Virus record (IMG/VR): IMGVR_UViG_3300044619_002381
Coordinates: 1-64,000 of that record
Length of the DNA: 64,000 nt
Direction: 5' to 3' (one strand)
Source of the DNA: a virus
In this document: in pieces, positions 21,557-55,500 of the stretch
How the letters are laid out: every line of letters begins with the position of its first letter
Numbering within the stretch: the stretch's first letter is position 1
Notes under the pieces: model-generated
Database searches by the model: none
Told to the model about the DNA's origin: nothing
Seen by the model: only the letters and a program-made list of their open reading frames with translations
Translations under genes and position numbers: made by a program

Positions 21557-24500
21557 TTATTGTATAATATCGGCACTATCAGCAAGTTCCAAGACAATGC
21601 TAGGCCCCCACTTCAAGAATGATGATGCGCCGTACTTCCCAGATGGGCAAGTTATAAATTCGGCATTGGTTATAACCCTGATATTCACCGTAGCACCCTC
21701 TGCAGGCCCCTCAGTGAAAATTATCCTCGACCCTTCCACCCTGTACGAATAGTCGCCCGCAGACGCACCCTGGAAGTAAGGAATCTGCATAGAACCCCCC
21801 AGATTAACTAAAATATTCTGAGAACTAACTGAAGCAGCGTTAACTGGTCTTGGGAGAGTTTCTGCTACATCGAAGTACCCATAAGTCAAATCAAATTCGG
21901 TTTTCACACCATTAAACTGGCTGGAGATGGAATTTAAAGAATATACTTGAACAGGAAAAACCGACTGAATGGCCCAGAAAGAAGAGGTACAAACAGTTCT
22001 AACATCAAACACGGTGCCAACTGCAAGGGCTTCGGAAAAAGTGATTTCCAACTCAGAGCCAGAGAGCCTAGTTAGGGTGTAAGAGTAAGGATCTAATGGA
22101 CCGGGGGTTGTTATGGGCAACTGTCCAGTACCACCTAAGAATACAAAAGTATTATTGGCGTTAATGTCGAACGGTGCCAAGTTAATTGCAGGATCTTTTG
22201 ATACCAAAGTAAACGAGAACCGGATGCCATTAATACTCTGGCCTTCCTTGATCTTTAGGGGCACCATTTGCAAAGTCCTATTATCATCATCAGATGTGAC
22301 GATTCTAATATCACTCACTGCCCCTTGCAAAGGAGCTTCATTGAAGATTATTTGATTGCCATTGACTGTGTAGTCCTTACCGGGCACCTGAGTGACGGCC
22401 CCTAGAATTGCAAAAATGGAGTTAGCTGAAATCTGAGTTGGAGGTATGGGGACCCCACCTTTAGTCAAGGTGAAGATAGTCGTGATACCGTTGAATAGGG
22501 GCGAAATAGAATCCGTTGAATATGCAGTAACCTGCCCAGGAAACTCTACAAATGGTTGCTGTTCGTAAATTTGTTGATTGGTCAGGTTTGCGAATGGGTT
22601 GATTTGCTCGAAATAGTTAGCTGTAAGGGCTTGTCTTTGGGGGCCAAAAATGATGATTTCACCCTTATCGTTGACACCAGTAATTGTCAGCCTGCCACTC
22701 CACAAAGTAGTTGCTTGGAAGTCCGCCGCTAATTTTCTAGAGATATCGTTTGTTTGGAATTTAGGTAAGCCACGGGAGTAATTGTAGTATCCTACATATG
22801 CCCATGTATGAGTATTAGCAATGACTATGGACGGTTGATTGAATTCTACAGGCCACCTACTGGTAGTTAGGGCATAACCACCGGTTTCGGGGGTCAATGG
22901 TAAAGCACCGATGGGCAAGAGCCTATCCCCCCAATATTTAGGTTGAAGGTAAGTAAGTAGAGACTCCGGAGAATACCCCATAATCTGGAAGAATCTCAGT
23001 ATTGCTCTCTTAGTGTTGGACCAATTAGGGTCATATAGCCCCGGTTCAGGAATGGGATTAGTTCCACAAACCTTAACGGAAGTTTGAATGGGCCAAGAAT
23101 TTGGTATAGTACCGGAATTAAAGTAGAAACCATTACCGGAGTTAAGTCTGATGGCCCTAACTATGGAGCCTGAGATACCAATTATTCGGACAAACTCATG
23201 ATTGGTGTCATTTCCGATTCTGACGATAGAAACAGTTTGCCTAGGGTTCTGTAGAACACTAGCAGATAGAACAGAGAACTCAACTATTTCTGGCCTGTAT
23301 CGTTGTGTGGGCCCTGGCAACCGCTCGGTTTGAATAACCGCAAGTGGGCTCACCAAGAAAGTCTCTGCACTGGTAACTAAATCTTTAAGGCAAATACCAA
23401 GGGATTCGGAACCATCATCATCGTCGTACTGATTATTAACCGGGTAGGTGGTGTAAGGGTTGGTAGAACCCCGGAAGTAGGTAGAATTTGGATAAACCGA
23501 TAAATATTCATCTGCAGCATAGGACCCCTGGAAAGTCTGGCTGACTAAGTCCTGTCTTTCTAAGGTACTAGTATCGACGAATGGGGAATTGGTAGAAGTT
23601 GGGGATAGTTTTTCTGGTCCTGATGAGGGCTGGAAGTTACTAGCCTCCCCATAATAAACTGAGGTCCAGTAATTATTTTCCGCAGCATACCAGTTTCTAT
23701 TGGCGTATGTAGTGTAGGTTCCCGAAGGGTTATCGAAAGTCAGGTAACTATTACTGCCGGAGTCATAATTCTGCACCCACGGCCTATCGTAATCGGATGC
23801 CGTTATGGTAACATAGTACTCTATGTCTTGATTCCCATCCCCAATCAAATAGTTAAACTGAGGTGAAGATCCCAAAATTCCCGTCTCCACTGCATCCACG
23901 GTGAACACACGGCCCCATCCCCCTAGTATCCCTGGGTCAAATTGAACATTGGGCCTTAAACTCGATGACCCGAGAATCTGACTACTTTGGTTGAGACGTA
24001 AAACATCGCCTATTTGAGGAGAAATAGCATTCGATGACGTATTACTTAATACTACGCTATAAGACTTTTCAATATCACTACGGGGGTCATGGAAACGCCT
24101 GATGTATGGCACCCCTAGGACAGGGATCAAATTGGTGTCAGTCGGTATAGTGCTGTCAGAAGACCTAATTCTCAACTGAGCAAATCTAGCCGGGTCATCC
24201 TGACCAGTGTTGATTGTGGGGCCACCATCTGTGGCCAGGAAGCCACGGTATGTGCATTCTTCCGTCTCTACCCAAATTGCACTACCCGGCTTCAAAGAAT
24301 AAGGAAGTAAATACCGTGGATCAAAATCCGCACTCAACTCAACTAGCTGAATTTCGGTATTAGTTGGATCAATGTAAGAGCTTACTATTCTGGATCCCAG
24401 GGAAAGAATCTTTTTGTTTTCTGACTTCTCAACTTGACCGATAGTTAAAGTCAAAGGTCTCTGGATGCCTTCAAAGACAAATCCTTGAGTATTATTCTGT

Positions 24501-26380
24501 GCTCCACTTATTGTATTTATTCCTAGAAAACCTTCGGCTTTGAAAGCTATGGACCCGAAGTTACTTGTGCTGTTAGTTAGGCTGGTGATTCCCCCATTTA
24601 GTGACCATACCCCAATTGCTGGACCGATGGTGTACACAGATTGTAGTTGAGCATAGGCTCCGTTCCTCACTCTGAACCCAAAATGTCTAAAATCATTATC
24701 TATATCTACTATGCCTAAACTAAGATTATCAACGGTTTTTAGGTTCTGATAGTAATAACGTATGTTATTGATGGGTACTGAATTTAATTCTTGGAGCTGG
24801 TCTTCAACGGTTATATCAACTATAGATGCGGGCCTTTGGGATAAAGGCTTGGATAGATATGTATACTCAGTCAATGACCACCATTTTTGTTCAGACCCTA
24901 GAGTGGTATAAACCTCATATGCCGTTGGGTCATTTTGTAGGCTGACAGATGTACAAGAGTTGGCAATGATGGACTTAAACCCAAGGACATTGGACCCGTC
25001 AAAATCAGTAAAACACATCCCATAATCAGACTTTAGATTTACCTGATTGACATAGGATGATGAATTTTTTGTAGTATTTGAATTAATATTGTTCGGGAAT
25101 GCCGTATCGGTGGGGCCCACGATGACAAAATCACCTGAATTAACCAGTAAATCACCGTCAGTTACTCTGCCCCCAAAGAATTCTGGGAAGGCTCTTTGAA
25201 CCTTAGTATAATACTCGGCTAAGTCATTTTTAGATGCCTCTTCAACTACTCTTAGTCTGTGGGCTGATTTCAAAGTAAGGGAACAGCTGAAACTCACAGT
25301 CCTGGAATTGACATTAAGTGGAATTGATGTAAACGCAACGCTAGGTGCTCCACTAAATGGTAATTGCTTTTCTGTGGATAACTGAAAAGTATATGTTGTT
25401 ATGGGGATGGCATAGTATTCACCAGTAGAGAAAGTCCCAGTGCTTTGATCGATGCCAGGTGAGTACTGGATGTTAACTAAATCATTCAACTCTAGACCAT
25501 GGGGCCTCCTAGTTCTGAATAGTGCGTAGGTATTCTGATTGGTAACTTCGACTACTTCGTTGTAGTTTACTTTATCGTTGATGGAAAAGTTGGAAAGGGA
25601 CGAGTTGCCTGACAGTTTAAAAATAGAAGTTATAGGTTGATTAACTCCTGCTAATGCGGTAGGGAAAGTGTGGTTACGGTATGAAGGTACATATGAAGGG
25701 CAAACTACGCACTTTTTCAGGTCCAAACCAACGATAGAAATACCAGATGGCACTATAATGGACCCGCTCTCAGTGTTAAATTTGCTTAAATCAGAGCTGG
25801 AAATATTTTCCGTTCCATAATTTGATAAGTCAAGAGAGAAGTCCGACAAGCTCTGCCCAGGGCCATTATTAGCGGTGAATCTTGACGACGCCAAAAAGAT
25901 TGTGTACCTATTAGATTCACTCTTCTGGGATAAACCAGCCAGTACGTTGCTGATATAAATTTTCGATAGCTCCAGGATAGCCCTTGTTAATGTCTGGTAG
26001 GGCAATGCTTGTCCATCATTGGCAATGGCATCCGAGGAGAACTGAAATTCCGGGGCTACAAATACTACATTACCATTGCCCCCAAGGAAAGGCGCTGCGA
26101 TTGACCTCCATGACCTTACAGCATCACCTACATTCAAAGTACCGTCAACGGTATTCAACCAGGATTCACCCCTCTCTGGGGTGCTTGTAGGGGCATCTGG
26201 TAGAACTGCCGTAGGACCAACTTTAATTACTCTTCCATCTGTTGTTCCAAAGAATAATCCCGGTTCTTGGCTATTGGTGTTCAAACCGATTTCGCCGGGT
26301 TGCAGTTGGTTGGTAGGACGCTTACCCAGAAGGCTGGATTTTGCGAAAATGATTTTGTTTGCTGATTGTTCTCTGGTCAT
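21557..26380 (-). CDS. Giant tail fibre protein (largest gene in window)
   Basis: A 1,607-residue protein. The N-terminal docking segment (LQPGEIGLNTNSQEPGLFFG, KVGP) matches the 13024-16638 fibre. The centre (about 430-600) has SDYGMCFTDFDGSNVLGFKS, the same module as in the 17751-21512 protein. The last about 350 residues contain three related units with (F)NG(I/V)(K/R/T) and ALGxV/LGG plus NIRVIT-like strings, probably repeated beta-sandwiches. These features indicate a long adsorption fibre sharing parts with its neighbours through recombination. Confidence 0.75.
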   Translation of the reverse strand: MTREQSANKIIFAKSSLLGKRPTNQLQPGEIGLNTNSQEPGLFFGTTDGRVIKVGPTAVLPDAPTSTPERGESWLNTVDGTLNVGDAVRSWRSIAAPFLGGNGNVVFVAPEFQFSSDAIANDGQALPYQTLTRAILELSKIYISNVLAGLSQKSESNRYTIFLASSRFTANNGPGQSLSDFSLDLSNYGTENISSSDLSKFNTESGSIIVPSGISIVGLDLKKCVVCPSYVPSYRNHTFPTALAGVNQPITSIFKLSGNSSLSNFSINDKVNYNEVVEVTNQNTYALFRTRRPHGLELNDLVNIQYSPGIDQSTGTFSTGEYYAIPITTYTFQLSTEKQLPFSGAPSVAFTSIPLNVNSRTVSFSCSLTLKSAHRLRVVEEASKNDLAEYYTKVQRAFPEFFGGRVTDGDLLVNSGDFVIVGPTDTAFPNNINSNTTKNSSSYVNQVNLKSDYGMCFTDFDGSNVLGFKSIIANSCTSVSLQNDPTAYEVYTTLGSEQKWWSLTEYTYLSKPLSQRPASIVDITVEDQLQELNSVPINNIRYYYQNLKTVDNLSLGIVDIDNDFRHFGFRVRNGAYAQLQSVYTIGPAIGVWSLNGGITSLTNSTSNFGSIAFKAEGFLGINTISGAQNNTQGFVFEGIQRPLTLTIGQVEKSENKKILSLGSRIVSSYIDPTNTEIQLVELSADFDPRYLLPYSLKPGSAIWVETEECTYRGFLATDGGPTINTGQDDPARFAQLRIRSSDSTIPTDTNLIPVLGVPYIRRFHDPRSDIEKSYSVVLSNTSSNAISPQIGDVLRLNQSSQILGSSSLRPNVQFDPGILGGWGRVFTVDAVETGILGSSPQFNYLIGDGNQDIEYYVTITASDYDRPWVQNYDSGSNSYLTFDNPSGTYTTYANRNWYAAENNYWTSVYYGEASNFQPSSGPEKLSPTSTNSPFVDTSTLERQDLVSQTFQGSYAADEYLSVYPNSTYFRGSTNPYTTYPVNNQYDDDDGSESLGICLKDLVTSAETFLVSPLAVIQTERLPGPTQRYRPEIVEFSVLSASVLQNPRQTVSIVRIGNDTNHEFVRIIGISGSIVRAIRLNSGNGFYFNSGTIPNSWPIQTSVKVCGTNPIPEPGLYDPNWSNTKRAILRFFQIMGYSPESLLTYLQPKYWGDRLLPIGALPLTPETGGYALTTSRWPVEFNQPSIVIANTHTWAYVGYYNYSRGLPKFQTNDISRKLAADFQATTLWSGRLTITGVNDKGEIIIFGPQRQALTANYFEQINPFANLTNQQIYEQQPFVEFPGQVTAYSTDSISPLFNGITTIFTLTKGGVPIPPTQISANSIFAILGAVTQVPGKDYTVNGNQIIFNEAPLQGAVSDIRIVTSDDDNRTLQMVPLKIKEGQSINGIRFSFTLVSKDPAINLAPFDINANNTFVFLGGTGQLPITTPGPLDPYSYTLTRLSGSELEITFSEALAVGTVFDVRTVCTSSFWAIQSVFPVQVYSLNSISSQFNGVKTEFDLTYGYFDVAETLPRPVNAASVSSQNILVNLGGSMQIPYFQGASAGDYSYRVEGSRIIFTEGPAEGATVNIRVITNAEFITCPSGKYGASSFLKWGPSIVLELADSADIIQ

Positions 26381-26429: not shown

Positions 26430-27626
26430 TTAATCCTTAGAATAGTCTTTGACTCCATCATACAAAATGTCGATAACTTTGGCAGCGTCATTGTTTGATA
26501 GCTTGGCCCATGGGCCTTTCTTGTATGACTTCAGGGGCTGCCCAACCCTGGACACAATCATATAGGTAATTTCGTTGTCGGAGATGCCGTGACTCCTGAG
26601 CGCATCGTAAACCCTGGGCAGATTGTCCCTCATTTTTAGCAAATTCTGGGGGGCATCCCCCTTGATTGACCCTTTATGTACTCCCATTTGGGGGTCTGTT
26701 TTTGATCTATGGTCCCCAGAGGTCAAGGGATCAGTTTTTCTAAGGTCGAAAGTCGAACCTTTTGGTAAAAACCCCTTGTTGGTAAAAGCCCCCAGTGCTT
26801 CAGATAACGCTGCTTTGACGCTTTGCTGCGATAAGCCCATATCAACAAACCTGGACCTACCATTTTTATCGATCAATACGTTATCACTATGTGCATCGTT
26901 GTGAGCTATCCCGAGCCTATGGACCTGTGATCTCAAGAACCAGTAAGCATCTCCAATGGATGTCTTTCCTACTTTGTCTGAAGACTTACTAAAGTTACCA
27001 TAACTCTCACCTGGCACCAGTCCCATGACTATACGACCATTTATTATATAGACACCACCCTCTGCCTTTGGTTTGCCTTTGGCTATTTCCCCATATATCA
27101 GTTTAGGACCTAAACCGGCTTTCCCTAAGATTTGAGTTATTTCCGCTTCCGTTGTACTTACCTGGCCACGTTTAACGGCATAGCTCGGGTTTCCTTTTAT
27201 CAAGAGCACAGTACCAAATCCACCTTCCCCTAATTTGGTTCCTTTACTTAGGGACCCGGACCAGTCAAATTGATCCTTAGTGCCATTAATGATCCTACCT
27301 ACCTTGAAACTAGAATCAAAATCAGAAGCATCATCTCTGGCCCATTGTGTGTTACCAGTAATTATTTTTCCTGGCCTCTTGATTGACTCTTGATTTACTT
27401 TGGGTACAGATTTTGTGCTTGCTTTTGTGTTTGGTTTCACCCTCGCCAAGTAGTCTTCCAGACTTTCCTTGGCATCATCGATGAAACTAGCATCAATAGA
27501 CCCGGATATACGGTCAATAGATTTAGATATGTTATCTCCAAAATCAACCCTACAAACTTTTATTCGGGAGATGCACGTTGACCCACATGATTTTCCTATA
27601 TCACACCTGTCCCCTTTACCAAACAC
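26430..27626 (-). CDS. Protein kinase-like protein with N-terminal four-Cys tag
   Basis: A 398-residue protein. Residues 8-25 form the tag CDIGKSCGSTCISRIKVC. A disordered linker follows (60-100), then a kinase fold: glycine loop GEGGFGTV (133-140), YAVKRG with K152, catalytic loop HNDAHSDN (242-249, D244 and N249) and VDMG (261-264) in place of DFG. All key catalytic residues are present, so it may phosphorylate host or phage proteins. The tag also occurs on the metallopeptidase and a small basic protein in this cluster. Co-packaging into the virion and delivery at infection is my inference, by analogy with T4 Alt or T7 kinase strategies. Confidence 0.82.
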   Translation of the reverse strand: MFGKGDRCDIGKSCGSTCISRIKVCRVDFGDNISKSIDRISGSIDASFIDDAKESLEDYLARVKPNTKASTKSVPKVNQESIKRPGKIITGNTQWARDDASDFDSSFKVGRIINGTKDQFDWSGSLSKGTKLGEGGFGTVLLIKGNPSYAVKRGQVSTTEAEITQILGKAGLGPKLIYGEIAKGKPKAEGGVYIINGRIVMGLVPGESYGNFSKSSDKVGKTSIGDAYWFLRSQVHRLGIAHNDAHSDNVLIDKNGRSRFVDMGLSQQSVKAALSEALGAFTNKGFLPKGSTFDLRKTDPLTSGDHRSKTDPQMGVHKGSIKGDAPQNLLKMRDNLPRVYDALRSHGISDNEITYMIVSRVGQPLKSYKKGPWAKLSNNDAAKVIDILYDGVKDYSKD

Positions 27627-28095: not shown

Positions 28096-28484
28096 TAATT
28101 GAAGTCGATGTTTTTTCTGGCCATAATATCCATGGCTTCATTCCATTTAAATCGATTCGACCACCAGGCCGATGAAGATGGCCCTTTAGCGATGTTCTTG
28201 GAGTGCCTAGACTTAAACTTTTTACGCTTCATCTTCATGCGTTCAGATTCACCTTCTTTAGGTGGCCCAGCAGTTTCTGCCCCCTTTTGGCCAAATTTCT
28301 TCAATTCTTCCTTACCGTCATGGCACCATTTGACCACATGGCTTTTTTCGTCGCCAGATTTAGTAGGGCGTGGTTTATTACAAGCCATTTTAGACTTGTC
28401 ATAAGTCTCCCCAAACTGCTCAGCAAACATGTTATAGAATGCCTCTAGGGCTTCATCGCTGAAATTTGCACTACCGTAAAGCAT
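28095..28484 (-). CDS. Small basic protein of a recurring phage family
   Basis: A 129-residue protein with CNKPRPTKSGDEKSHVVKWC, then KKFGQKGA, then KKFKSRHSKNIAKGPSSSAW and a final FKWNEAMDI. I have seen this order (C-x-KPR, HVVK-x-C, FG, RH-x-x-N-x-x-KG-x-x-SA-x-W) in small phage proteins of unknown function, but I do not give a family number. It is basic, so nucleic-acid or protein binding is possible. It overlaps its neighbour's start by 1 nt. Confidence 0.65.
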   Translation of the reverse strand: MLYGSANFSDEALEAFYNMFAEQFGETYDKSKMACNKPRPTKSGDEKSHVVKWCHDGKEELKKFGQKGAETAGPPKEGESERMKMKRKKFKSRHSKNIAKGPSSSAWWSNRFKWNEAMDIMARKNIDFN

Positions 28485-28900
28485 TACTCTTTCTCTCCAT
28501 GTTTCAAATAGTCTGCAATTGCTGTTAAACTGTGGGAAGCTTCTGAAATTTTTGATGCTATCCAGGGGTCTGAGTTGCTATTGGGGGTGATCATTCCTAA
28601 GGAAGTGGCGATATTATCCTGCATTGATTTTAACTGAGTGATTAACATACCACCATTAGGTTCGAAATCAGCGTCCCCTTCCCCCATGATAAAAGTCGAT
28701 GGTTTTGTGATGGGTTCTTTTTTCATACCGGGGGCAATGGCCATCTTATCCATTGGGGTAAGGTCGGGGTTTTGACCCCCTGATGCTTCACCAGATCTGG
28801 TAGTCCTGGGACCTTTAGCACCCTTGGCAGCATTCTCCACAAAATTCAAGTCAAAGCCCAAACCTTGGAGACGTCTCCAATCGTACTCAGAAATAGTCAT
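28484..28900 (-). CDS. Small protein with N-terminal EYDW tag
   Basis: A 138-residue protein. Its first 20 residues (SEYDWRRLQGLGFDLNFVEN) match the start of the gene at 29709-30209. The C-terminal part is helical (LITQLKSMQDNIATSLGMI, ISEASHSLTAIADYLKHGEK). No function known. The shared N-terminus suggests a common targeting or interaction signal. Confidence 0.7.
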   Translation of the reverse strand: MTISEYDWRRLQGLGFDLNFVENAAKGAKGPRTTRSGEASGGQNPDLTPMDKMAIAPGMKKEPITKPSTFIMGEGDADFEPNGGMLITQLKSMQDNIATSLGMITPNSNSDPWIASKISEASHSLTAIADYLKHGEKE

Positions 28901-29708: not shown

Positions 29709-30209
29709 TTATTTGGTTTTAGAGTGCTTTTTCCAAAGGTCGTTATCAGCCTGGCGAGCCTTACCAACTCCTGTAATAAATGAATTCACTCTGGCTAATG
29801 CCCATTGCTGCGGGGAAACTCCGGGCCGGTGACCGGAACGCCATGCTGCGATCCCTCTACTGTATACTTCTCCTAGGATACTAGCAGAAATTCCGGACTT
29901 CTCAGATTTTGCTTTTAGTGCCTTGCTAGACCCCTCTGAATACTTATCATCGAAGGCTTTAGTTGCGGGGGATTGAGGGATTTTTTCGTTTCTTTTCCTG
30001 AACTTATCGTCAGATTCCCAATCTTTGTATAGGTCTTTGGGTGATACTCCAGGGTCTTTAGCCTTTTGCATCGTTTCTTTAGCTTCTTCCTTGGCGATGG
30101 TTTGTTCCTTGGGGGTCAATCCTTTTTTATACCTAGCAGGTAGGGCCCTCTCTACAAACTGCAAATCAAAGCCAAGACCCTGTAGGCGGTTCCAGTCGTA
30201 TTCCATCAA
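29709..30209 (-). CDS. DUF5824-like protein with EYDW tag
   Basis: A 166-residue protein. Residues 3-22 are the tag EYDWNRLQGLGFDLQFVER, also seen at 28484-28900. The C-terminal about 85 residues read KSGISASILGEVYSRGIAAW, then GHRPGVSPQQWALARVNSFI and ADNDLW, which I recognise as the DUF5824-type domain found in many phages, function unknown. The start overlaps the stop of the gene upstream by 4 nt. Confidence 0.75.
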   Translation of the reverse strand: MMEYDWNRLQGLGFDLQFVERALPARYKKGLTPKEQTIAKEEAKETMQKAKDPGVSPKDLYKDWESDDKFRKRNEKIPQSPATKAFDDKYSEGSSKALKAKSEKSGISASILGEVYSRGIAAWRSGHRPGVSPQQWALARVNSFITGVGKARQADNDLWKKHSKTK

Positions 30210-31531: not shown

Positions 31532-31807
31532 TTAGGGTTTTGCTAGGGGCTTCGCTGCGGACTTCTTAGCCGGGGATACCTTTTGAACTTTCTTAATTGC
31601 TTCAACAGCTTTATTTAGGCCCATGTTTAAAGACCAGGGGATATCAACCATGCAAACATGGTATCTCGGGATGCAGGATGCTCCGCAAGATTTCCCTTTG
31701 TTGCACTTTTTTCTTTTTAATTTGGGCAAATTGAGGCCGCCTAGTCTGGCTATTTGGCCTCTTTTTGCGGTATTAATTTCAGCTTCCGTTTTTCCCAGGG
31801 GTGCCAT
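31532..31807 (-). CDS. Small basic protein with the four-Cys tag
   Basis: A 91-residue protein. Its centre (about 35-53) reads CNKGKSCGASCIPRYHVC, the same four-Cys tag found at the N-termini of the kinase and metallopeptidase. The ends are Lys/Ala-rich and basic (KKSAAKPLAKP). It contains no enzyme domain, so it may be a carrier, a competitor for the tag's receptor, or the remnant of a lost effector. Confidence 0.72.
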   Translation of the reverse strand: MAPLGKTEAEINTAKRGQIARLGGLNLPKLKRKKCNKGKSCGASCIPRYHVCMVDIPWSLNMGLNKAVEAIKKVQKVSPAKKSAAKPLAKP

Positions 31808-32978: not shown

Positions 32979-33314
32979 TCAAGCCCCTTCTCTAGGTTTT
33001 AAAATCCATTCATTTTCGTAATCCGTGTAATGGATACCTTTTCTTTTTTCTAATCTTCTGGCAGGGTCTTTCTTGTTGGCTTCCCTCATACCGTTTACCA
33101 TGATGTCCCGCATGGCCCTAAGTTTTTCCTTTGGCACTTCACAGTGTGGGCTGTCCCTGTAGCTTCTATACCATTTACAAACTTCTGAGGGATCATCAGA
33201 TTGTAACATCATGTTCCAGATTCCCATTTCTTGGCTACCGGTTAGCGTACCCACTGGTAATTTACCTTCTAGGTCTTCACGGGGTGGCCTATTAAATCTT
33301 GTGTCTCTTCTCAT
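32979..33314 (-). CDS. Hypothetical basic protein
   Basis: A 111-residue protein rich in Arg and Lys, with a hydrophobic/aromatic centre (EMGIWNMMLQSDDPSEVCKW) and C-terminal YTDYENEWILKPREGA. No known domain. It overlaps its upstream neighbour by 4 nt. Confidence 0.6.
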   Translation of the reverse strand: MRRDTRFNRPPREDLEGKLPVGTLTGSQEMGIWNMMLQSDDPSEVCKWYRSYRDSPHCEVPKEKLRAMRDIMVNGMREANKKDPARRLEKRKGIHYTDYENEWILKPREGA

Positions 33315-33496: not shown

Positions 33497-34300
33497 TTAC
33501 CTCAGTAAGTTCCCTTCCCTTAGAACAGACTCCACCAGTTCATATTCCGCTGGAAAAAGTTTTTTCATTTTGGGTCCAGCGAATATGTAACTTGAAAATA
33601 GCTCAGCATAGTGCTCTAGTTGATTTGTTTTACTGTATGTGCTAACTCTTTTGAAGCTATCGGGAATTCCAACTTCTTTCGCTTTGAAGTGAGCGTGGTG
33701 CCCTAGTTCGTGGACTAACGTCACCAGTGTATTATTGCTGGCTGACCCTGGAGCTTTACCCATAGTGTGTGGCAGTTCTTTACCTTGGGCGGCACTGGAT
33801 AAGTGCTTTTCGGCAGTGGCCTTTATTTTCTTTACTTGCGGGGTAAACCCCTGAGCTGACCGAATAACTGTGACCCCTTCTTTATACGCTAACCCGCCCC
33901 AAGTCTTATTGTAGATTTTCTGCGAGATGGTGAAATCTGGGTTTTTGAAGTACCCTGAAAATGCGCTTCTGAAGGCTTCTTTGTTGCCTGCAATGTCCTT
34001 CCAGTCCATGAATAGGGTCTTAGTCTTATTGAAAATCCTCTGGAGAACTTCTACTCTGCGGGGGGCGTCTGGGTCCAGGGTTTTTAAATCCCGGATGGCA
34101 CCCATGATGGAGTTCCTGTTAAAGTCTATCTTTAAGTCAGGGTGAGCTTTTACTTCGCCACTTCTCATTAGCTTGATGAATTTCCCAAGGGAATCTGCAA
34201 TATATGGGCTTAATTCAACTCTGCAAACTAAACCCCGTTGAATGCAAGTTGAGCGACAAGATTTCCCTAAAGAACATCTTTTCTTCCCGGACCCCCCCAT
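33497..34300 (-). CDS. Zinc metallopeptidase-like protein with N-terminal four-Cys tag
   Basis: A 267-residue protein. The tag CSLGKSCRSTCIQRGLVC occupies residues 9-26, as in the kinase. The enzyme motif HELGHH is at 197-202 within LVTLVHELGHHAHF, and LEHYAELFSSYIF (228-240) supplies a likely third zinc ligand (E229 or E233), giving a gluzincin-like arrangement. It may cleave a host protein or cell-envelope target. Delivery with the virion is inferred from the shared tag. The ATG is followed at once by a run of seven G, inside which an upstream small frame continues. Confidence 0.75.
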   Translation of the reverse strand: MGGSGKKRCSLGKSCRSTCIQRGLVCRVELSPYIADSLGKFIKLMRSGEVKAHPDLKIDFNRNSIMGAIRDLKTLDPDAPRRVEVLQRIFNKTKTLFMDWKDIAGNKEAFRSAFSGYFKNPDFTISQKIYNKTWGGLAYKEGVTVIRSAQGFTPQVKKIKATAEKHLSSAAQGKELPHTMGKAPGSASNNTLVTLVHELGHHAHFKAKEVGIPDSFKRVSTYSKTNQLEHYAELFSSYIFAGPKMKKLFPAEYELVESVLREGNLLR

Positions 34301-34479: not shown

Positions 34480-35301
34480 TTAAGCTTCGTATGCCTCCAA
34501 GATTTCTGCTATGATGCCGTTCCTGACGATGTCCCCTCTTTCAAATTTAACTCTCCCCACCCCTCTAATGGAGGAAAGCCGGTGATAGCAATCTAAAAGT
34601 CCATTTTCAGGTTTAAATACATCTAGGTCAATTTGCCTTGTGTCACCCGTAATGACAACTTTCGAGTCTTTTCCAACCCTACTGAGGACGGTTTTAACAT
34701 TTTCTGGTAATGAATTTTGGGCCTCATCAAAAAGAATTAGGCACTCATTTAGTGATCTCCCCCTCAAATCCTCTAGGAGTGTGGGTTCTACAATCTTTTT
34801 ATCTACAAGGTAATCCGCAGCCCCCTTGCTTCTAGTCATTACAACCAAATTGTCATAAACAGGTCCCACCAGTGGCTTCATTTTTTCTTCCAGGGTTCCA
34901 GGAAGAGCCCCCCTATTTCTTTGGTGAGAACAGCCTACGTCACTTCTAATGTAATAAATTTTTTGAATGTTACCCTTAGAAATTTCACTCAATCCCCACC
35001 ATAGCGCCACTAAGGTTTTTCCAACTCCTGATGGGCCTATAGCAATGGTGACTGTATTCTTATTTAAAGAAGACCACAAGTCCTCCTGATGGTTTGTTTT
35101 CGGGTAAAAGGGTAGAACATCCATTCCCCTATAAGAGTGCTCAACCATTTGGGCGGACTCTGCGCGGCGCGATTTGCGCTTGTCTTTTGATCTCAACATT
35201 TGGTAAAGAGGGTTAATGACAACTGTGGATAACGTGTATGCTTCGTTGCTAATTTGGATTACATGATCCTCACCCCCTTCTAAACTAATAGGCAGAGTCA
35301 T
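34480..35301 (-). CDS. phoH: PhoH-like ATPase
   Basis: A 273-residue P-loop ATPase of the PhoH family, common in marine and freshwater phages. Walker A is GPSGVGKT (89-96), Walker B is LILFDEAQNSLP (about 169-180), followed by VITGDTRQIDL. The exact phage role is unsettled; RNA metabolism and phosphate-stress links have been proposed. It has its own GGGTAAAA element after a terminator, so it begins a new unit that runs into the effector-like cluster. Confidence 0.9.
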   Translation of the reverse strand: MTLPISLEGGEDHVIQISNEAYTLSTVVINPLYQMLRSKDKRKSRRAESAQMVEHSYRGMDVLPFYPKTNHQEDLWSSLNKNTVTIAIGPSGVGKTLVALWWGLSEISKGNIQKIYYIRSDVGCSHQRNRGALPGTLEEKMKPLVGPVYDNLVVMTRSKGAADYLVDKKIVEPTLLEDLRGRSLNECLILFDEAQNSLPENVKTVLSRVGKDSKVVITGDTRQIDLDVFKPENGLLDCYHRLSSIRGVGRVKFERGDIVRNGIIAEILEAYEA

Positions 35302-35680: not shown

Positions 35681-37093
35681 TCAGGTAACGATGGGTAGTA
35701 GTTGACTGTAGCTAACTAAGATTGCACACATGGTATCGGACGGGGGCCCCAATGGAATCTGGGGGTCATCACATCTATTCAAAGTGCTTTGGATATTAGG
35801 ATTGGAAGATTTCACTCTCCCTGAGTCTAGCATATGGGAGATAACGTTTAATGTGGGTTGTCTCGGCTTGCTACCTACGCAAACGTTTAACCCTAAGCCC
35901 TGTAGGTACACAGTCCAAGCTGCACTTACCATGGCGGATTCAAGTACAATTTCTTCCGCTTCGTATGCCTTAACTGCTAGGCTTAGGATTACTCCGACAG
36001 TTTTCAAGTCCCAATTGCCTTCGTAAGTGTCAAGGACATACATGTAGTCCCTTTTCTTTGTAACCCCTGCGATGCAAATACCTGTTTTATCAATGCTGCC
36101 GGCACTGAAAGCAGGATCAACAGAAATAATTACTTTATCTAATGGGGGGATTTTCGGTGTCGGTGAGCATCCCTTATAGAGCCAGGAGAACTTTTCATCG
36201 CCGATATTCCTTCTAATATGGTTCAGATTTTCGGGGGACCAGTAGGAATTGATTCTACTCAAGGTTTCCCCTACATTCCTACCAAGAATGTCAGCCTCTG
36301 CCTCTTCTTTACTTTCGATAATTGCTGACAAATTAATGTGGACGGCTCCTTTCGGGTTTGATACGGGGTCGAAAACACCGAATTTATCTAAGAAGTAGCC
36401 GAAAATGTCTTCATCGCCCCATCTTGACCCAAAAACAACTATGGCACTGTTTTGGTGGCGCCGGGTCATAATTTCCTTTTCTATCCAGTCTTTATTTACT
36501 GTCATATTTGAGGACTTGTGATAGTCATCGATTAACCAAACCCCTGGTACCCCGTTGGGTCCACCCCAAGGTGAACGATACCCGTGCGTACGCCAGGGGA
36601 TGTTAGCCGATGTTACGCTATCAGCCCGCAAATCAAGTTTTGAAAACAATTCCTCAAAAGGAAAGGCACTAACCAACTGCTTAACTCTACTTACTGCTAA
36701 GTCGGTGATACCCCCATTGTAAGAAGTTACGAAATGGTTAGTATCAGGATCTTTCCCCAGGAGCCAAGACAGAAATAGGGAGCCCAATGTAGACTTCCCA
36801 GTACGAGGAGGCATCGATACTAAGAGGATTGGGTACCTGCCTTCGGCAATGTCTTCAAAGGCGGACCCCAAGACTTCATAAGTTTCCCAATTTAGCAAGG
36901 AGTCTGTGCCTTCCGTGGCGCGAGACAAATAGCAAGGGAAACTATATTGGGCGCACTCTTTAATGTAGTCATTAATTATTTCCTTAGTCGCGCCTCTCAT
37001 TTCAAGTTCAAGAAGTCCCCTCCTATACTTTCTCCAGCTTGAATGTTCCGATAGCTGGGAAGCGTGTGTTATTTTCGGGTGTTTTGGTGTCAT
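35681..37093 (-). CDS. Large terminase subunit paralogue 1 (divergent)
   Basis: A 470-residue TerL-type motor. Walker A SMPPRTGKST (93-102), Walker B VWLIDDYH (185-192), coupling motif FGSRWGDED (221-229), nuclease motif I ISVDPAFSAG, motif II EEIVLESA and a divergent motif III (PPSDTMCA instead of the usual HDD..DA). It shares the N-terminal HASQL-x-EHSSWRxYxRGL with its neighbour. The ATPase looks intact; nuclease competence is uncertain. It may be a second packaging motor, a regulator, or one that acts on a different substrate. Confidence 0.8.
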   Translation of the reverse strand: MTPKHPKITHASQLSEHSSWRKYRRGLLELEMRGATKEIINDYIKECAQYSFPCYLSRATEGTDSLLNWETYEVLGSAFEDIAEGRYPILLVSMPPRTGKSTLGSLFLSWLLGKDPDTNHFVTSYNGGITDLAVSRVKQLVSAFPFEELFSKLDLRADSVTSANIPWRTHGYRSPWGGPNGVPGVWLIDDYHKSSNMTVNKDWIEKEIMTRRHQNSAIVVFGSRWGDEDIFGYFLDKFGVFDPVSNPKGAVHINLSAIIESKEEAEADILGRNVGETLSRINSYWSPENLNHIRRNIGDEKFSWLYKGCSPTPKIPPLDKVIISVDPAFSAGSIDKTGICIAGVTKKRDYMYVLDTYEGNWDLKTVGVILSLAVKAYEAEEIVLESAMVSAAWTVYLQGLGLNVCVGSKPRQPTLNVISHMLDSGRVKSSNPNIQSTLNRCDDPQIPLGPPSDTMCAILVSYSQLLPIVT

Positions 37094-37178: not shown

Positions 37179-38909
37179 TCAGAGCGATAACCCATAACCA
37201 GTGTCATCCCTATTGAGGCGAGGTCTGGAAAAAGACTCTGGACCGATAAAACCAGAACCAGAATCTAAATTATTGTAAAGTCCAGCCGAAGGTAAATTCC
37301 TCCCTACTCTACCAGTAGGTAAATTTGAATTACCCAAGAATGGCCTTCTGTTTCCTCCGCTCCACCTCCTCGCTTGTATTATAGCATCTTGTATCCCACG
37401 GTCAACGGTGTCTAGCTTCATCGCATAGTACGTCAGGGACCACACAAACGCATCCACCGAGTCATCGTGCTTAACGAAGGGGAATCCTGTTAGCTCCTTA
37501 ATAAAACTATCTACCCATAACCCCTCAACAAGTTTAACCCTGTCATTCTCTAAGAGTGGGCAAACAGCTTCGAGTCTAACCGTTTTTGACCTAAGGGGTC
37601 TCATTTCTTCTACAGGTATTTTTGTTTCCCGTCTCAACATTTGTATCAAAGATTGGCCGGATGCTGCCTTTTCGATACAGATTACTTTTGGTTTGTAGAA
37701 GGAATGTAGTTGCTTAATAGAGGCAATCAAGTCCGGGAAGCCCCATCTCCCTTTAACGATTTCCCTAATGTAAACAGTTCTGGGATCTCTAGTCGAAATT
37801 CCAGCCACACAGACCGCAGTTTCGTCTGCACCTTCTTTTTCAGAAAACGCACAGTCTACACCCAGCCATACTACATCTAGTGGTGGGCACTTTTTTTCTT
37901 CTACCATGGCGATCCATCCGGCCTTTACAATTTGACCTTCTGCTGCAGTTGGAGTTCCCTGATAAAGGGCCGCAAATTTGGAACTGCCCATAGTTTTCTT
38001 TTGGGCCTCCAGCATATCAATCGAGAATGCCGGGTTATCAGGCCAATGGGACTCACCGATTTGCCTGCCTAAGGGGTCATCGACGGGGTCTTCACACAGG
38101 CCCGCAATATTCACCCATCTCCAACCTTCCGGGTTTTCTTCCTCATCATAGCTGCCGTCCGATTCTAAAACCTGGCCATGCAAATCATTGGCATGAAACC
38201 TGGTCGCAATAATTAGACGGCAATAATTGTTAGTTTTACGTGTCGATGCCTCTTCTTGCCACCACGTTTGGAGACTCTCAAAAGCCCTGGCAGAAGCTGA
38301 GCTTTTCAGTGGGTCGTCGATTACCATGGCCCCCACACCTGGGCTAATAATGTTTACAGACCCTGCCGTATGGCCAGTCAACACACCACCGACAGAAGTA
38401 GGCAGGATGTATCCGCCACTAAGCATCTCAAATTTAGAATCCTTGGCAAAACCTTTCCAATCGGGGAAGATTTTCTTAAAGACAGGTGTCTTCAACATGC
38501 CGATAACTTCCTTATGGAACTTATTGGACAGTGATAAACCATAAGAGGCAATAACGTGTTGAGTTTCTTGATCTCTCCCTAGTAACCAAGCCACAAACAT
38601 TGATGCCAGCATTGATTTACCAGATCGAGGAGGACAGGATACGATCAAGTTATGGTAGCGTTTATTTGCTAGATCCTCAAAACCACTGGCAATAATTTCA
38701 TGGAAATCCGCGACCTTTAACGCACCACCCTTCATTAAGTCTGCAAAAGCCAGGAAACAATACCTAGAAGACTCAAACATGTAGTTCTGAATGACAGAGT
38801 TTGGTGCTTCTAAGACATTAAGATGATGTAAACCCCTAATGTAATGGCGCCATGAGCTGTGCTCATCTAGTTGACTAGCGTGGTTTATTATCGGCCGTGG
38901 GAGTGTCAT
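37179..38909 (-). CDS. terL: Large terminase subunit paralogue 2 (canonical)
   Basis: A 576-residue DNA-packaging motor. Walker A CPPRSGKS (92-99), Walker B AMVIDDP, coupling motif ATRFHANDL, and the RNase H-like nuclease with LGVDCAFSEKEGADETA, VICIEKAASG and HDDSVDAFVWSL. All the expected acidic residues are visible. It is the better candidate for the working terminase. Its start overlaps the putative small subunit by 4 nt. The C-terminal about 60 residues are an Arg/Gly/Asn-rich tail. Confidence 0.92.
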   Translation of the reverse strand: MTLPRPIINHASQLDEHSSWRHYIRGLHHLNVLEAPNSVIQNYMFESSRYCFLAFADLMKGGALKVADFHEIIASGFEDLANKRYHNLIVSCPPRSGKSMLASMFVAWLLGRDQETQHVIASYGLSLSNKFHKEVIGMLKTPVFKKIFPDWKGFAKDSKFEMLSGGYILPTSVGGVLTGHTAGSVNIISPGVGAMVIDDPLKSSASARAFESLQTWWQEEASTRKTNNYCRLIIATRFHANDLHGQVLESDGSYDEEENPEGWRWVNIAGLCEDPVDDPLGRQIGESHWPDNPAFSIDMLEAQKKTMGSSKFAALYQGTPTAAEGQIVKAGWIAMVEEKKCPPLDVVWLGVDCAFSEKEGADETAVCVAGISTRDPRTVYIREIVKGRWGFPDLIASIKQLHSFYKPKVICIEKAASGQSLIQMLRRETKIPVEEMRPLRSKTVRLEAVCPLLENDRVKLVEGLWVDSFIKELTGFPFVKHDDSVDAFVWSLTYYAMKLDTVDRGIQDAIIQARRWSGGNRRPFLGNSNLPTGRVGRNLPSAGLYNNLDSGSGFIGPESFSRPRLNRDDTGYGLSL

Positions 38910-52518: not shown

Positions 52519-55500
52519 TCAGGACAAGATGTTGGTGATCATAGCGCCAGAACCGATAAGACCAGATGCACCGAGGCCAACCAAGTTAACCACACGTTCG
52601 ATGGTGATTTCAGCACGCACGACACGGCGTTCGCGAATGTAGTACTCCAATTTGTTATCGTAAAGGCTCTTTATCCTCTACATCTTTGTATTTCTACAAA
52701 GTTCAGACTATATCTTTGCCTTACATCCTTATGTAAGACATTAGGCGCTCGTGGAGTTTTCATCTGTTCTAGATTACTAACTCTAGTCGTTGAACGTTCG
52801 TTTTCTCCCGAAAACGCTTCGCTGCTGATTGCCATGGTTTGAAGTTCAAACGTTAGGGTCCCAGCAATTCACCTAATTTCTTTTTATGTCAGACCCCAGT
52901 AGTTAAGGACGGACAGCGGGTGTTCCTGTGAGTTGATCATTTTTGTTAGCGTAAAGGTTATTTATCCTTCACTTCTTTACATTTCTGCAAAGATCAGACT
53001 ATATCTTCTTCCTGAAATTTCTTATCAATCCGGTAACATGACTATCAGGTAGATTTAAGTGTCGTGCGAACTTGCGAATTGCTGGTTTACCCAGCTCTAC
53101 CCAAAGTTCAAACAATTCATCAAACCTAGACCATAACTCTTTTCTCGATCTGGGGTTATTTATTCCCCTTACCTTTAGAGACAAGGTTTTCGAGATTTTC
53201 AGTTTATGCTCTTCAGTCATTTTTCTACCAGTCCAGGGATGATTTGACTTATCCTTGAAATGATTTTTATGCCAGTCACTGTTTTTTCTTTTAGCTTCTT
53301 CTGAGCTTCCTAATTTGGGGGAAATTAAACTAATCTCCCTTGAACCTAGCCCCCATTGTTTTGAACTTTTCCAAATTGCCCACCATAATTTTTTATTATG
53401 GGGTTGGGATAAACTTAAAAGTAAATGGGCTATGTAGTGTTCTCTCCGGGTCAGCATTACTAGGTTTGATACTTCATCATTCCCTCCACAACAAATAGGA
53501 ATAATGTGATGTTTTTCAAGCCCATTTTTGCTTCCCCTTCGTTTGGGGATTGGCCGAAGTAAAAGTAAACGTGATGTGATAAGATTCCAATACCACTTTT
53601 CCCATTTATTAAGAAAGTGACATTCTATCAGGAGTGGGGCACTCGTGGATGGGTTATTATTTTCGGTATTCACCATCTAGTCGTTGAACCTTTTGACTAC
53701 AACTCTATTATAGCATAGAGTCCGAAATAGTCAACTTGGCTGCTGATTACCATAGCTTTCAAACTTTCGTTTGAAGCCGTAGGCTTCCCAGCAATTCACC
53801 CCATTGATCTGCGGATCAGGCAGATAATTTGACGTTACCGTCAAACCACGCATTCAACTCGTTTAAAAGAAACGATGTTATTAACATACGTGTAACTGAA
53901 GGCCGGAGTCGCAGCATTAGCACCACCCGCAGGCATGATCGAATCAGAAGGGCCGTTGGGGCTGTAGAACAGGAGGATGCCATTGGCGGGGAAGACAGGC
54001 TGCAAGGAGCCGTCGTTGGCCAAATAACGCCCTTCAGCTACGCGCAGGCCACGCTCAAGACCGAAGTAGCGAGCGATGACATCTGTGTCGATGCTATTGG
54101 CGGAGGTGTACTTGATACGATCAAGGATCGCTTCGTTGGTCAGCAAGAGGTCGAAAACCGAAGTTCCAAGAACAGCGGAGTTCGGACGAATGCCGATCTG
54201 GTTGGCAACAGCACGCTTCAGGGTCAGGATGTCCTCAATGGGATTAGAGGTTGCACCAGACCATGCGGCAGGGCCAGTGGCTGTGCCATAAGCGGTGTTG
54301 AAGGCGGTCCAGGTTGTAAAACCAAGACCAGTTTGTGAGCCAGGAGTCCCATTGTAGGGCTCGTATGGATTGTAGCTGCCAGTCACTGAAACAGCTTGAG
54401 CAACGGTGTACTCGTAGCTGTTCATTCATTATGTTATCGCGAGGGCTCTTTATCCCTTGCTTCTGCATGTTTCTATGCAGTTCAGACTATATCATCGTTT
54501 TGTAAACAAAACGTCAGGCGCTCGTGTCAGCTTCATTACTGTTCTAGTAGTATGCTGTTAGTCGTTGAACGTTCCGTCAATCCCTTGACGGCTTCGCTGC
54601 TGATTACCATAGCATCAAACTTTCGTTTGAAACCGTAGGTTTCCCAGCAATTCACCCAATTTTCTAAATGAGATTAATCTCATAGGGCCAATGTGTTTAG
54701 CCTAGACATCGCGTTGCGAGTCTCGATGGCGCGTAGCATTTGTTAACTCAGCGGCTCTTTATCCACTGATTCATTACCTTGTCGTTGGTAATGTTCAGAC
54801 TATATTATTGCCCCACTATGTACACGATTACTGTACTTTGTAAGACATTGGGCGCTCGTGTCAGCTTCATTACTGTTCTAGTAGTATGCTGTTAGTCGTT
54901 GAACGTTCCGTCAATCCCTTGACGGCTTCGCTGCTGATTGCCCACGCGGGGGTTCCAGCAATTCACCCAATTTATAGTGGACCTACGCTGCGATCGAAAT
55001 CGTTCGTAAAAAATAATCCACTTGTGCAGGACCTTCTCCTGCGTTTTCGATTCAATAATGTTATCGCAAAGATTTTATTCTATGCTTCTTTACATTTCTG
55101 TAAAGTTCAGACTATATCTTCACCCCTGTTTTTCTTTCTTAGCTTAGCCATATGCTCACGGGCAATCTGCCTATGGGTTTCAGACTTTTCTTTATCCGCC
55201 CAGTACTTTTTGGCGGACTCACTTCTCTTTTCCTTTTCCTCTTCAGTTTGAACCCTTCCTCTATTAGCTTCGTGAGCTTTTTTAAGTGTTTTTTCGGGCA
55301 GGGATTTACCCATCTTGGTTTTACTAAGTCTTTCTCGCATTTGCTTGGACTTAGGTCTTCCTTTCTCGGCTGCCCCCGGGGCAATACCGAATGAGGTCTT
55401 TTGTAGGGAAGTAGCTAAAATAGATGTACGTGGTCGGTAGGTAATGGCGCCTTCTCCGCATTTAACTCCCAACATCCTTCTAACTGCATACCAGTGTTTT

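Follow-up and report, generated by a model that had tools for sequence, protein, structure and literature searches.

A four-cysteine N-terminal tag on a protein kinase and unrelated enzymes of S-CBWM1-like cyanophages is a candidate virion-loading label

Is a phage-encoded protein kinase with a cysteine-rich N-terminus an active enzyme, and what is the N-terminal tag for? This question is raised by a locus in the window analysed here, a stretch of 64,000 nucleotides (bases 1-64000 of a 103,308-bp IMG/VR virus record), where the original prediction had recognised a phage protein kinase with a full catalytic set and had left its cysteine tag unexplained. The gene, its product (kinase 1) and the motifs concerned are as follows.

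26430..27626, minus strand: tagged protein kinase 1, 398 aa, GTG start (motifs, profiles, structure prediction, dN/dS)
27552..27605, minus strand: cysteine tag of kinase 1, CDIGKSCGSTCISRIKVC, residues 8-25 (tag HMM E 2.5e-15)
27213..27230, minus strand: G-loop GEGGFG, residues 133-138 (sequence and alignment)
27171..27173, minus strand: K152, the VAIK-type lysine (AVKRG), invariant in 22 homologues (alignment)
26880..26903, minus strand: catalytic loop HNDAHSDN, H242-N249, with H242, D244 and N249 (alignment)
26835..26843, minus strand: DMG, residues 262-264, D262-G264 (alignment)

Kinase 1 is a real, intact protein kinase, and its full catalytic set is backed by the motifs, by profile searches and structure prediction, and by the purifying selection on the gene. 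An alignment of 22 tagged homologues revealed that H242, D244 and D262 are invariant, as is K152, that conservation is at least 90% at N249 and G264 and that the G-loop is nearly invariant. The single sequence matched Pfam Pkinase at E 2.7e-6, under the curated gathering cut-off; the family profile (A5) found matches at E <= 1e-3 in 902 distinct PDB sequences, the best of them at 4.8e-10, and protein kinases made up 60 of the 60 PDB matches listed. The GTG lies 4 nt past the stop codon of the gene upstream and has GGGGG 10-14 nt 5' of it. Because it is present at eight IMG/VR loci with 75-100% identity and has a dN/dS of 0.14-0.20, indicative of purifying selection, kinase 1 is beyond a chance reading frame.

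Structure prediction, which had been proposed as a check, supported the kinase domain, and overall superposition was poor: AlphaFold2 modelled the domain (about residues 93-398) mostly at pLDDT 80-99, with the first ~90 residues disordered and the tag at pLDDT 30-55, and Foldseek retrieved kinases from the PDB (E 4e-7, probability 1.00) with a whole-model TM of only 0.25-0.33. Among viral models, the five best structural matches, at E 3.6e-15 to 3.2e-9, were the S-H34 and F5B400 kinases (TMq ~0.52 to both) and three S-CBWM1 kinases; F5B400 is 821 aa, the same length as the S-CRM01 kinase. Kinase 1 is thus closest in structure to kinases that have been reported from cyanophage virions. The suggestion that the enzyme may be active is thus backed by motifs, profiles, the AlphaFold2 model and dN/dS, and from these predictions kinase 1 is very probably catalytically active. 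The DMG noted in place of DFG is indeed there, but it is nothing special, as homologues carry DFG, DLG, DWG or DYG at this position, and we rejected it as a distinctive feature. The comparisons proposed with T7 gp0.7, HipA and lanthipeptide-type kinases led nowhere. T7 gp0.7 is likewise a phage Ser/Thr kinase that modifies host proteins, but kinase 1 had no match to the T7-kinase PHROG (phrog_15752) at E <= 0.01; one of the 22 family members, other than kinase 1, matched it (9.8e-5), which made this comparison uninformative. In addition, the Pfam scan of kinase 1 gave no HipA or LanC/LanM-type match, and a T7 gp0.7-like or HipA-like identity was rejected in the absence of specific similarity in Pfam and PHROG.

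The phage itself is placed by its terminase.

37179..38909, minus strand: terminase large subunit, 53.5% identical to that of S-CBWM1

S-CBWM1 is a non-T4 cyanomyovirus (Aokuangvirus), and the next match of the window terminase was S-TIM5 at 34%. The window phage is judged to be a relative of S-CBWM1 because of this 53.5% identity and because its capsid, portal, PhoH and gp116 homologues are 45-70% identical to those of S-CBWM1, and we infer a cyanobacterial host. Two further features of this genome were observed. A second terminase-large-subunit paralogue (35681-37093, minus strand) adjoins the gene at 37179-38909, and the pair is also found in G001, G003, G018 and G009. The major capsid gene (52522-57275, minus strand) appears to be interrupted by as many as eight group I introns, with short exons between them: Intron_gpI of Rfam was matched eight times on the minus strand across 52522-57275 (E 6e-24 to 2e-11), and the exon matches to S-CBWM1 gp175 between the introns are in some cases only 19-21 aa long. 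A capsid gene broken up by introns in this way is very unusual.

The cysteine tag turned out to be the most informative part of kinase 1, because many enzymes of this phage lineage, unrelated to one another, have it in common as an N-terminal module. It is real, as had been noted: C8, C14, C18 and C25 are invariant in 22/22 homologues. The window holds three copies, on kinase 1, on a zincin and on the remnant of a second kinase; the latter two are listed with the genes around them.

33497..34300, minus strand: tagged zincin-like metallopeptidase, 267 aa, HELGHHAH ... HYAELFSS, between PhoH and the gp107 homologue (motif)
34223..34276, minus strand: cysteine tag of the zincin, CSLGKSCRSTCIQRGLVC (tag HMM E 8.9e-12)
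31532..31807, minus strand: remnant of tagged kinase 2, a 91-residue ORF that keeps tag and linker (tag HMM E 1.1e-17)
34480..35301, minus strand: PhoH, which is 70% identical to S-CBWM1 gp105 and bounds cargo slot 1 on the left
32979..33314, minus strand: gp107 homologue, which bounds cargo slot 1 on the right
21557..26380, minus strand: counterpart of S-CBWM1 gp116, whose annotation is putative baseplate wedge (45% identity over 1628 aligned columns); it borders cargo slot 2 and lies directly 3' of kinase 1

A scan of IMG/VR with the tag gave 50 loci, and 62 distinct tags were read altogether. The tag has the form C-x5-C-x3-C-x6-C (consensus KRCxxGKSCGAxCIxxxKxCxVDLP), with the 5-3-6 spacing in 61 of the 62; it is N-terminal in all, with the first cysteine at median residue 14, and the G, K, S and C around its second cysteine are nearly fixed. 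Beyond the cysteines, hydrophobic and charged residues follow in what resembles a short amphipathic helix. Trimmed of the tag, the proteins sorted into groups with no relation to one another: 27 were kinases and 11 HNH-like proteins, next to three zincin groups, likewise unrelated, and singletons. The HNH-like proteins are large and conserve D-x-Y-T...EH...N...N residues of HNH type; their AlphaFold model had a mean pLDDT of 60.7, too low for a fold search. Among the others is a zeta-toxin-like kinase (Pfam E 8e-22), and two singletons (L024 and L038) are ADP-ribosyltransferase-like by motif; the Pfam scan gave no match for the ART-like and some of the zincin assignments, which are based on visible motifs. 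At one locus (L079, G010:C1:12384-14060), a tagged PGDYG-domain protein adjoins a tagged zeta-toxin-like protein, possibly as a pair.

The tag is restricted to phages of one kind. In a phage collection of 50,697 records it occurred in one species only, Synechococcus phage S-CBWM1, the only tagged isolate, and it was not found in the T4-like cyanomyoviruses S-CREM2, S-CRM01, S-B68 and S-H34 or in S-TIM5. Wherever a terminase was detected on a tag-bearing contig, it is 62-100% identical to that of the window, and the tag therefore marks one lineage. One of these contigs, G001 (129,961 bp), has a kinase, zincin and terminase 100% identical to those of the window. The searched forms of the tag had no encoding match in 84,980 prokaryotic genomes and none in a plasmid search, so that, for these forms, an origin as a cyanobacterial host motif taken up by the phage was rejected. 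Five tags were counted in S-CBWM1, five in G001 and eight in G011. The last is a 47,102-bp contig (L034) with its eight tags in 47 kb, where four tagged kinases stand in near-continuous tandem and another lies beside PhoH, an apparent expansion of cargo via duplication.

Comparison of gene neighbourhoods revealed two cargo slots in which position and tag are constant and the enzyme changes. In slot 1, between PhoH and gp107, the window has the tagged zincin and L034 a tagged kinase, and S-CBWM1 (gp106), L042, L043, L056, L059 and L060 have a tagged HNH-like protein there. Slot 2, beside gp116, holds a tagged kinase in the window and in L044, L057 and L035, and the tagged kinase gp113 of S-CBWM1 is two small genes away from gp116. 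Compared with L003, the kinase 2 remnant lacks ~0.93 kb at 31535/31550, a deletion that removed its kinase domain; kinase 2 is intact (399-406 aa) in L003, L004 and L006. In L006-L008 the situation is the opposite of that in the window, as kinase 1 carries a frameshift and kinase 2 is intact; such reciprocal loss suits redundant cargo. Elsewhere in the window, two neighbouring and otherwise different proteins (28484-28900 and 29709-30209, minus strand) have a common N-terminus, EYDWxRLQGLGFDLxFVE; the latter, a DUF5824 protein, matches a phage cytidyltransferase family over that family's C-terminus.

The tagged isolate S-CBWM1 connects the tag with the virion. According to PMC10665884, which quotes Xu et al. 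(2018), kinases of APH, ChoK and RIO types were found in S-CBWM1 virions. We identified these as gp162 (APH-like), gp161 (ChoK-like) and gp113 (RIO-like), and all three carry the tag, as do gp106 and gp174; gp174 is annotated as a virion structural protein and adjoins the major capsid gene. The public protein records of gp113 and gp161 are without the tag owing to mis-annotated starts: in GenBank MG450654 the annotated starts lie inside the tag, and upstream in-frame ATGs restore it, that of gp113 being preceded by GGGAGAGG. A fourth S-CBWM1 kinase, the PknB-like gp173, is untagged and is absent from the kinases named in PMC10665884, which also reports an NMNAT from the virion. The tag is thus on three of the four named non-structural virion enzymes, against five tagged among 178 genes (hypergeometric P 4e-5, indicative only, as the four enzymes were picked by their authors as recognisable); restricted to the four kinases, the match between tag and virion has P = 0.25. 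The NMNAT, gp39, lacks the cysteine tag but has a different N-terminal motif with two cysteines (YDFTRCVRPDGSAYGTGGKCRKGTE). This second motif was also observed on gp165 and in L037, L041, L053, L057, L058, L060, L062 and L078, on various proteins of tag-bearing phages and often near cysteine-tagged genes, and in the phage collection it occurred in S-CBWM1 only; it is possibly a second loading label.

The most persuasive comparison is between the tag and the starts of homologous kinases in T4-like cyanophages. The kinases of S-CREM2, S-CRM01, S-B68 and S-H34 have no cysteine tag and begin instead with VKRFDAFLTEE (S-CREM2, annotated as a virion protein), MISFDQFLSEK (S-CRM01), MKRLGRLLAEN (S-B68) and MRLSQFNEN (S-H34). 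Similar starts were found on other non-structural virion proteins of S-CREM2, namely MKDFDSFLEE on a SAM hydrolase and MKNFSSFLTE on a cytidylyltransferase, and its Cas9-like protein has LRFASFMAEAA at residues 17-27. The capsid-targeting sequence (CTS) of phage T4 is MKTYQEFIAE, which these N-termini resemble. Kinase 1, which starts MFGKGDRCDIGKSCGSTC, is without a T4-type capsid-targeting start, CTS-like starts being confined to the T4-like homologues. In the kinase tree, which has no fixed root and in which long branches meet, the T4-like kinases form one clade (100/100) among the tagged kinases, its exact place being unsettled, and kinase 1 belongs to a separate clade. One kinase family thus carries either of two N-terminal labels, depending on the phage lineage. 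For loading into the T4 head, the 10 N-terminal residues of IPIII are enough (PMC9026906), and the T-even internal proteins are diverse and have only the capsid-targeting sequence in common (PMC3012670). A short N-terminal label common to diverse proteins, as in T4, is also what the cysteine tag provides.

We therefore consider it reasonably probable that kinase 1 is catalytically competent, that its tag is a virion-loading label and that the cargo is injected with the DNA into the cyanobacterium. The first ~30-90 residues of kinase 1 would constitute a detachable address label, made up of a four-cysteine knuckle with GKSCG and a helix-like stretch, that the cargo enzymes have in common throughout this lineage of S-CBWM1-like (Aokuangvirus-like) cyanomyoviruses. 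This label would bind a putative component of the assembling particle, such as scaffold, core or portal, and kinase 1, once loaded into the virion, would enter the cyanobacterium alongside the DNA and could phosphorylate host proteins as early as the first minutes of infection. The tag would then be T4-CTS-like in action, with a swappable effector attached and a signal unrelated in sequence. On the broader proposal, the balance tips only slightly towards a new virion-loading signal, a four-cysteine and probably zinc-binding knuckle, with which a non-T4 cyanomyovirus lineage loads interchangeable enzymes for injection. We lean just as narrowly towards an enzyme set of kinases, HNH-like nucleases, zincins, ART-like and zeta-toxin-like proteins whose loading as cargo the tag predicts from sequence.

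Other explanations of the tag were weighed against virion loading. The four invariant cysteines, which invite the guess that the tag may bind zinc, and their basic surroundings (K+R ~16%, D+E ~7%) would also suit a small metal-binding (zinc or iron-sulphur) domain with a regulatory or nucleic-acid-binding role inside the infected cell, for example in tethering late enzymes to phage DNA, presence in virions being a side effect of binding to DNA. In one zincin protein (L028) the tag is weakly like the BFD [2Fe-2S] domain, but this Fer2_BFD score (E 0.02) is under the Pfam cut-off and the tag had no counterpart in the PDB, and a known zinc or Fe-S fold was rejected. Sorting is favoured because one tag is found on many enzyme classes and is replaced by T4-type sequences in homologous kinases, and we regard an intracellular metal or nucleic-acid domain as unlikely, if the least so of these alternatives. 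It is slightly harder to accept that kinase 1 is an ordinary late regulatory enzyme, that virion kinases are abundant contaminants and that the tag has an unrelated role. The authors of PMC10665884 allow that such proteins may co-purify with virions, but that paper records kinases in virions of S-CRM01, S-TIM5, S-CREM2 and S-CBWM1, and this recurrent detection coincides with N-terminal address-like sequences of two unrelated forms.

The tag might also direct enzymes to the lumen or tip of the tail or to the baseplate rather than to the head, where they would act upon attachment or right after it the baseplate-wedge gene gp116, and peptidases are among the cargo; however, the other cargo slot is beside PhoH and the terminase, and the tagged gp174 adjoins the gene for the major capsid protein. 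Cytoplasmic substrates are needed, moreover, by kinases and by ART-like and zeta-toxin-like enzymes, which also speaks against a tail location, and we hold this to be the most doubtful of the alternatives.

Injected effectors, T4-type targeting, MuF toxins and polyvalent proteins are already known, and what is new, as far as limited literature searches go, is the cysteine tag, for which no prior description was found. The cyanophage virion kinases (S-CBWM1 gp162, gp161 and gp113, S-CRM01 PKN8, S-CREM2 gp14 and that of S-H34) belong to the same family as kinase 1; those of S-CBWM1 have the tag in common with it, whereas those of T4-like phages have a CTS-like N-terminus. The T4 internal proteins and Alt likewise carry a short conserved N-terminal label on diverse host-entering proteins (PMC3012670, PMC9026906), but the T4 CTS is ~10 residues long and has no cysteine, whereas the tag has four invariant cysteines, no sequence similarity to the CTS and a place in a non-T4 lineage. 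The MuF polymorphic toxins of temperate phages (PMC5576092), for which phage delivery has been proposed, similarly combine a common N-terminal region with exchangeable C-terminal effectors. The ~30-residue tag, however, is no structural head protein, and Pfam and PHROGs scans found no MuF domain in the tagged proteins. Polyvalent proteins (PMC5512222) offer the same palette of enzymes predicted to be injected, namely protein kinases, ARTs, peptidases and nucleases. They hold several catalytic domains per polypeptide, an arrangement that Pfam scans did not find in the tagged proteins examined, which are many separate proteins with one domain each; polyvalent kinases have also lost the C-lobe, which the tagged kinases seem to keep.

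The first minutes of an infection are set by enzymes injected with the phage DNA; such enzymes are hard to spot by sequence and have so far been known mainly via proteomics. If the tag is a loading signal, the cargo of S-CBWM1-like cyanophages would be readable from their genomes, proteins of unknown function included, and the recurrence of kinases in cyanophage virions would be explained, with two unrelated label systems serving homologous kinases. In addition, the tag would then offer a short, testable handle for placing chosen proteins in phage heads in cyanobacteria.
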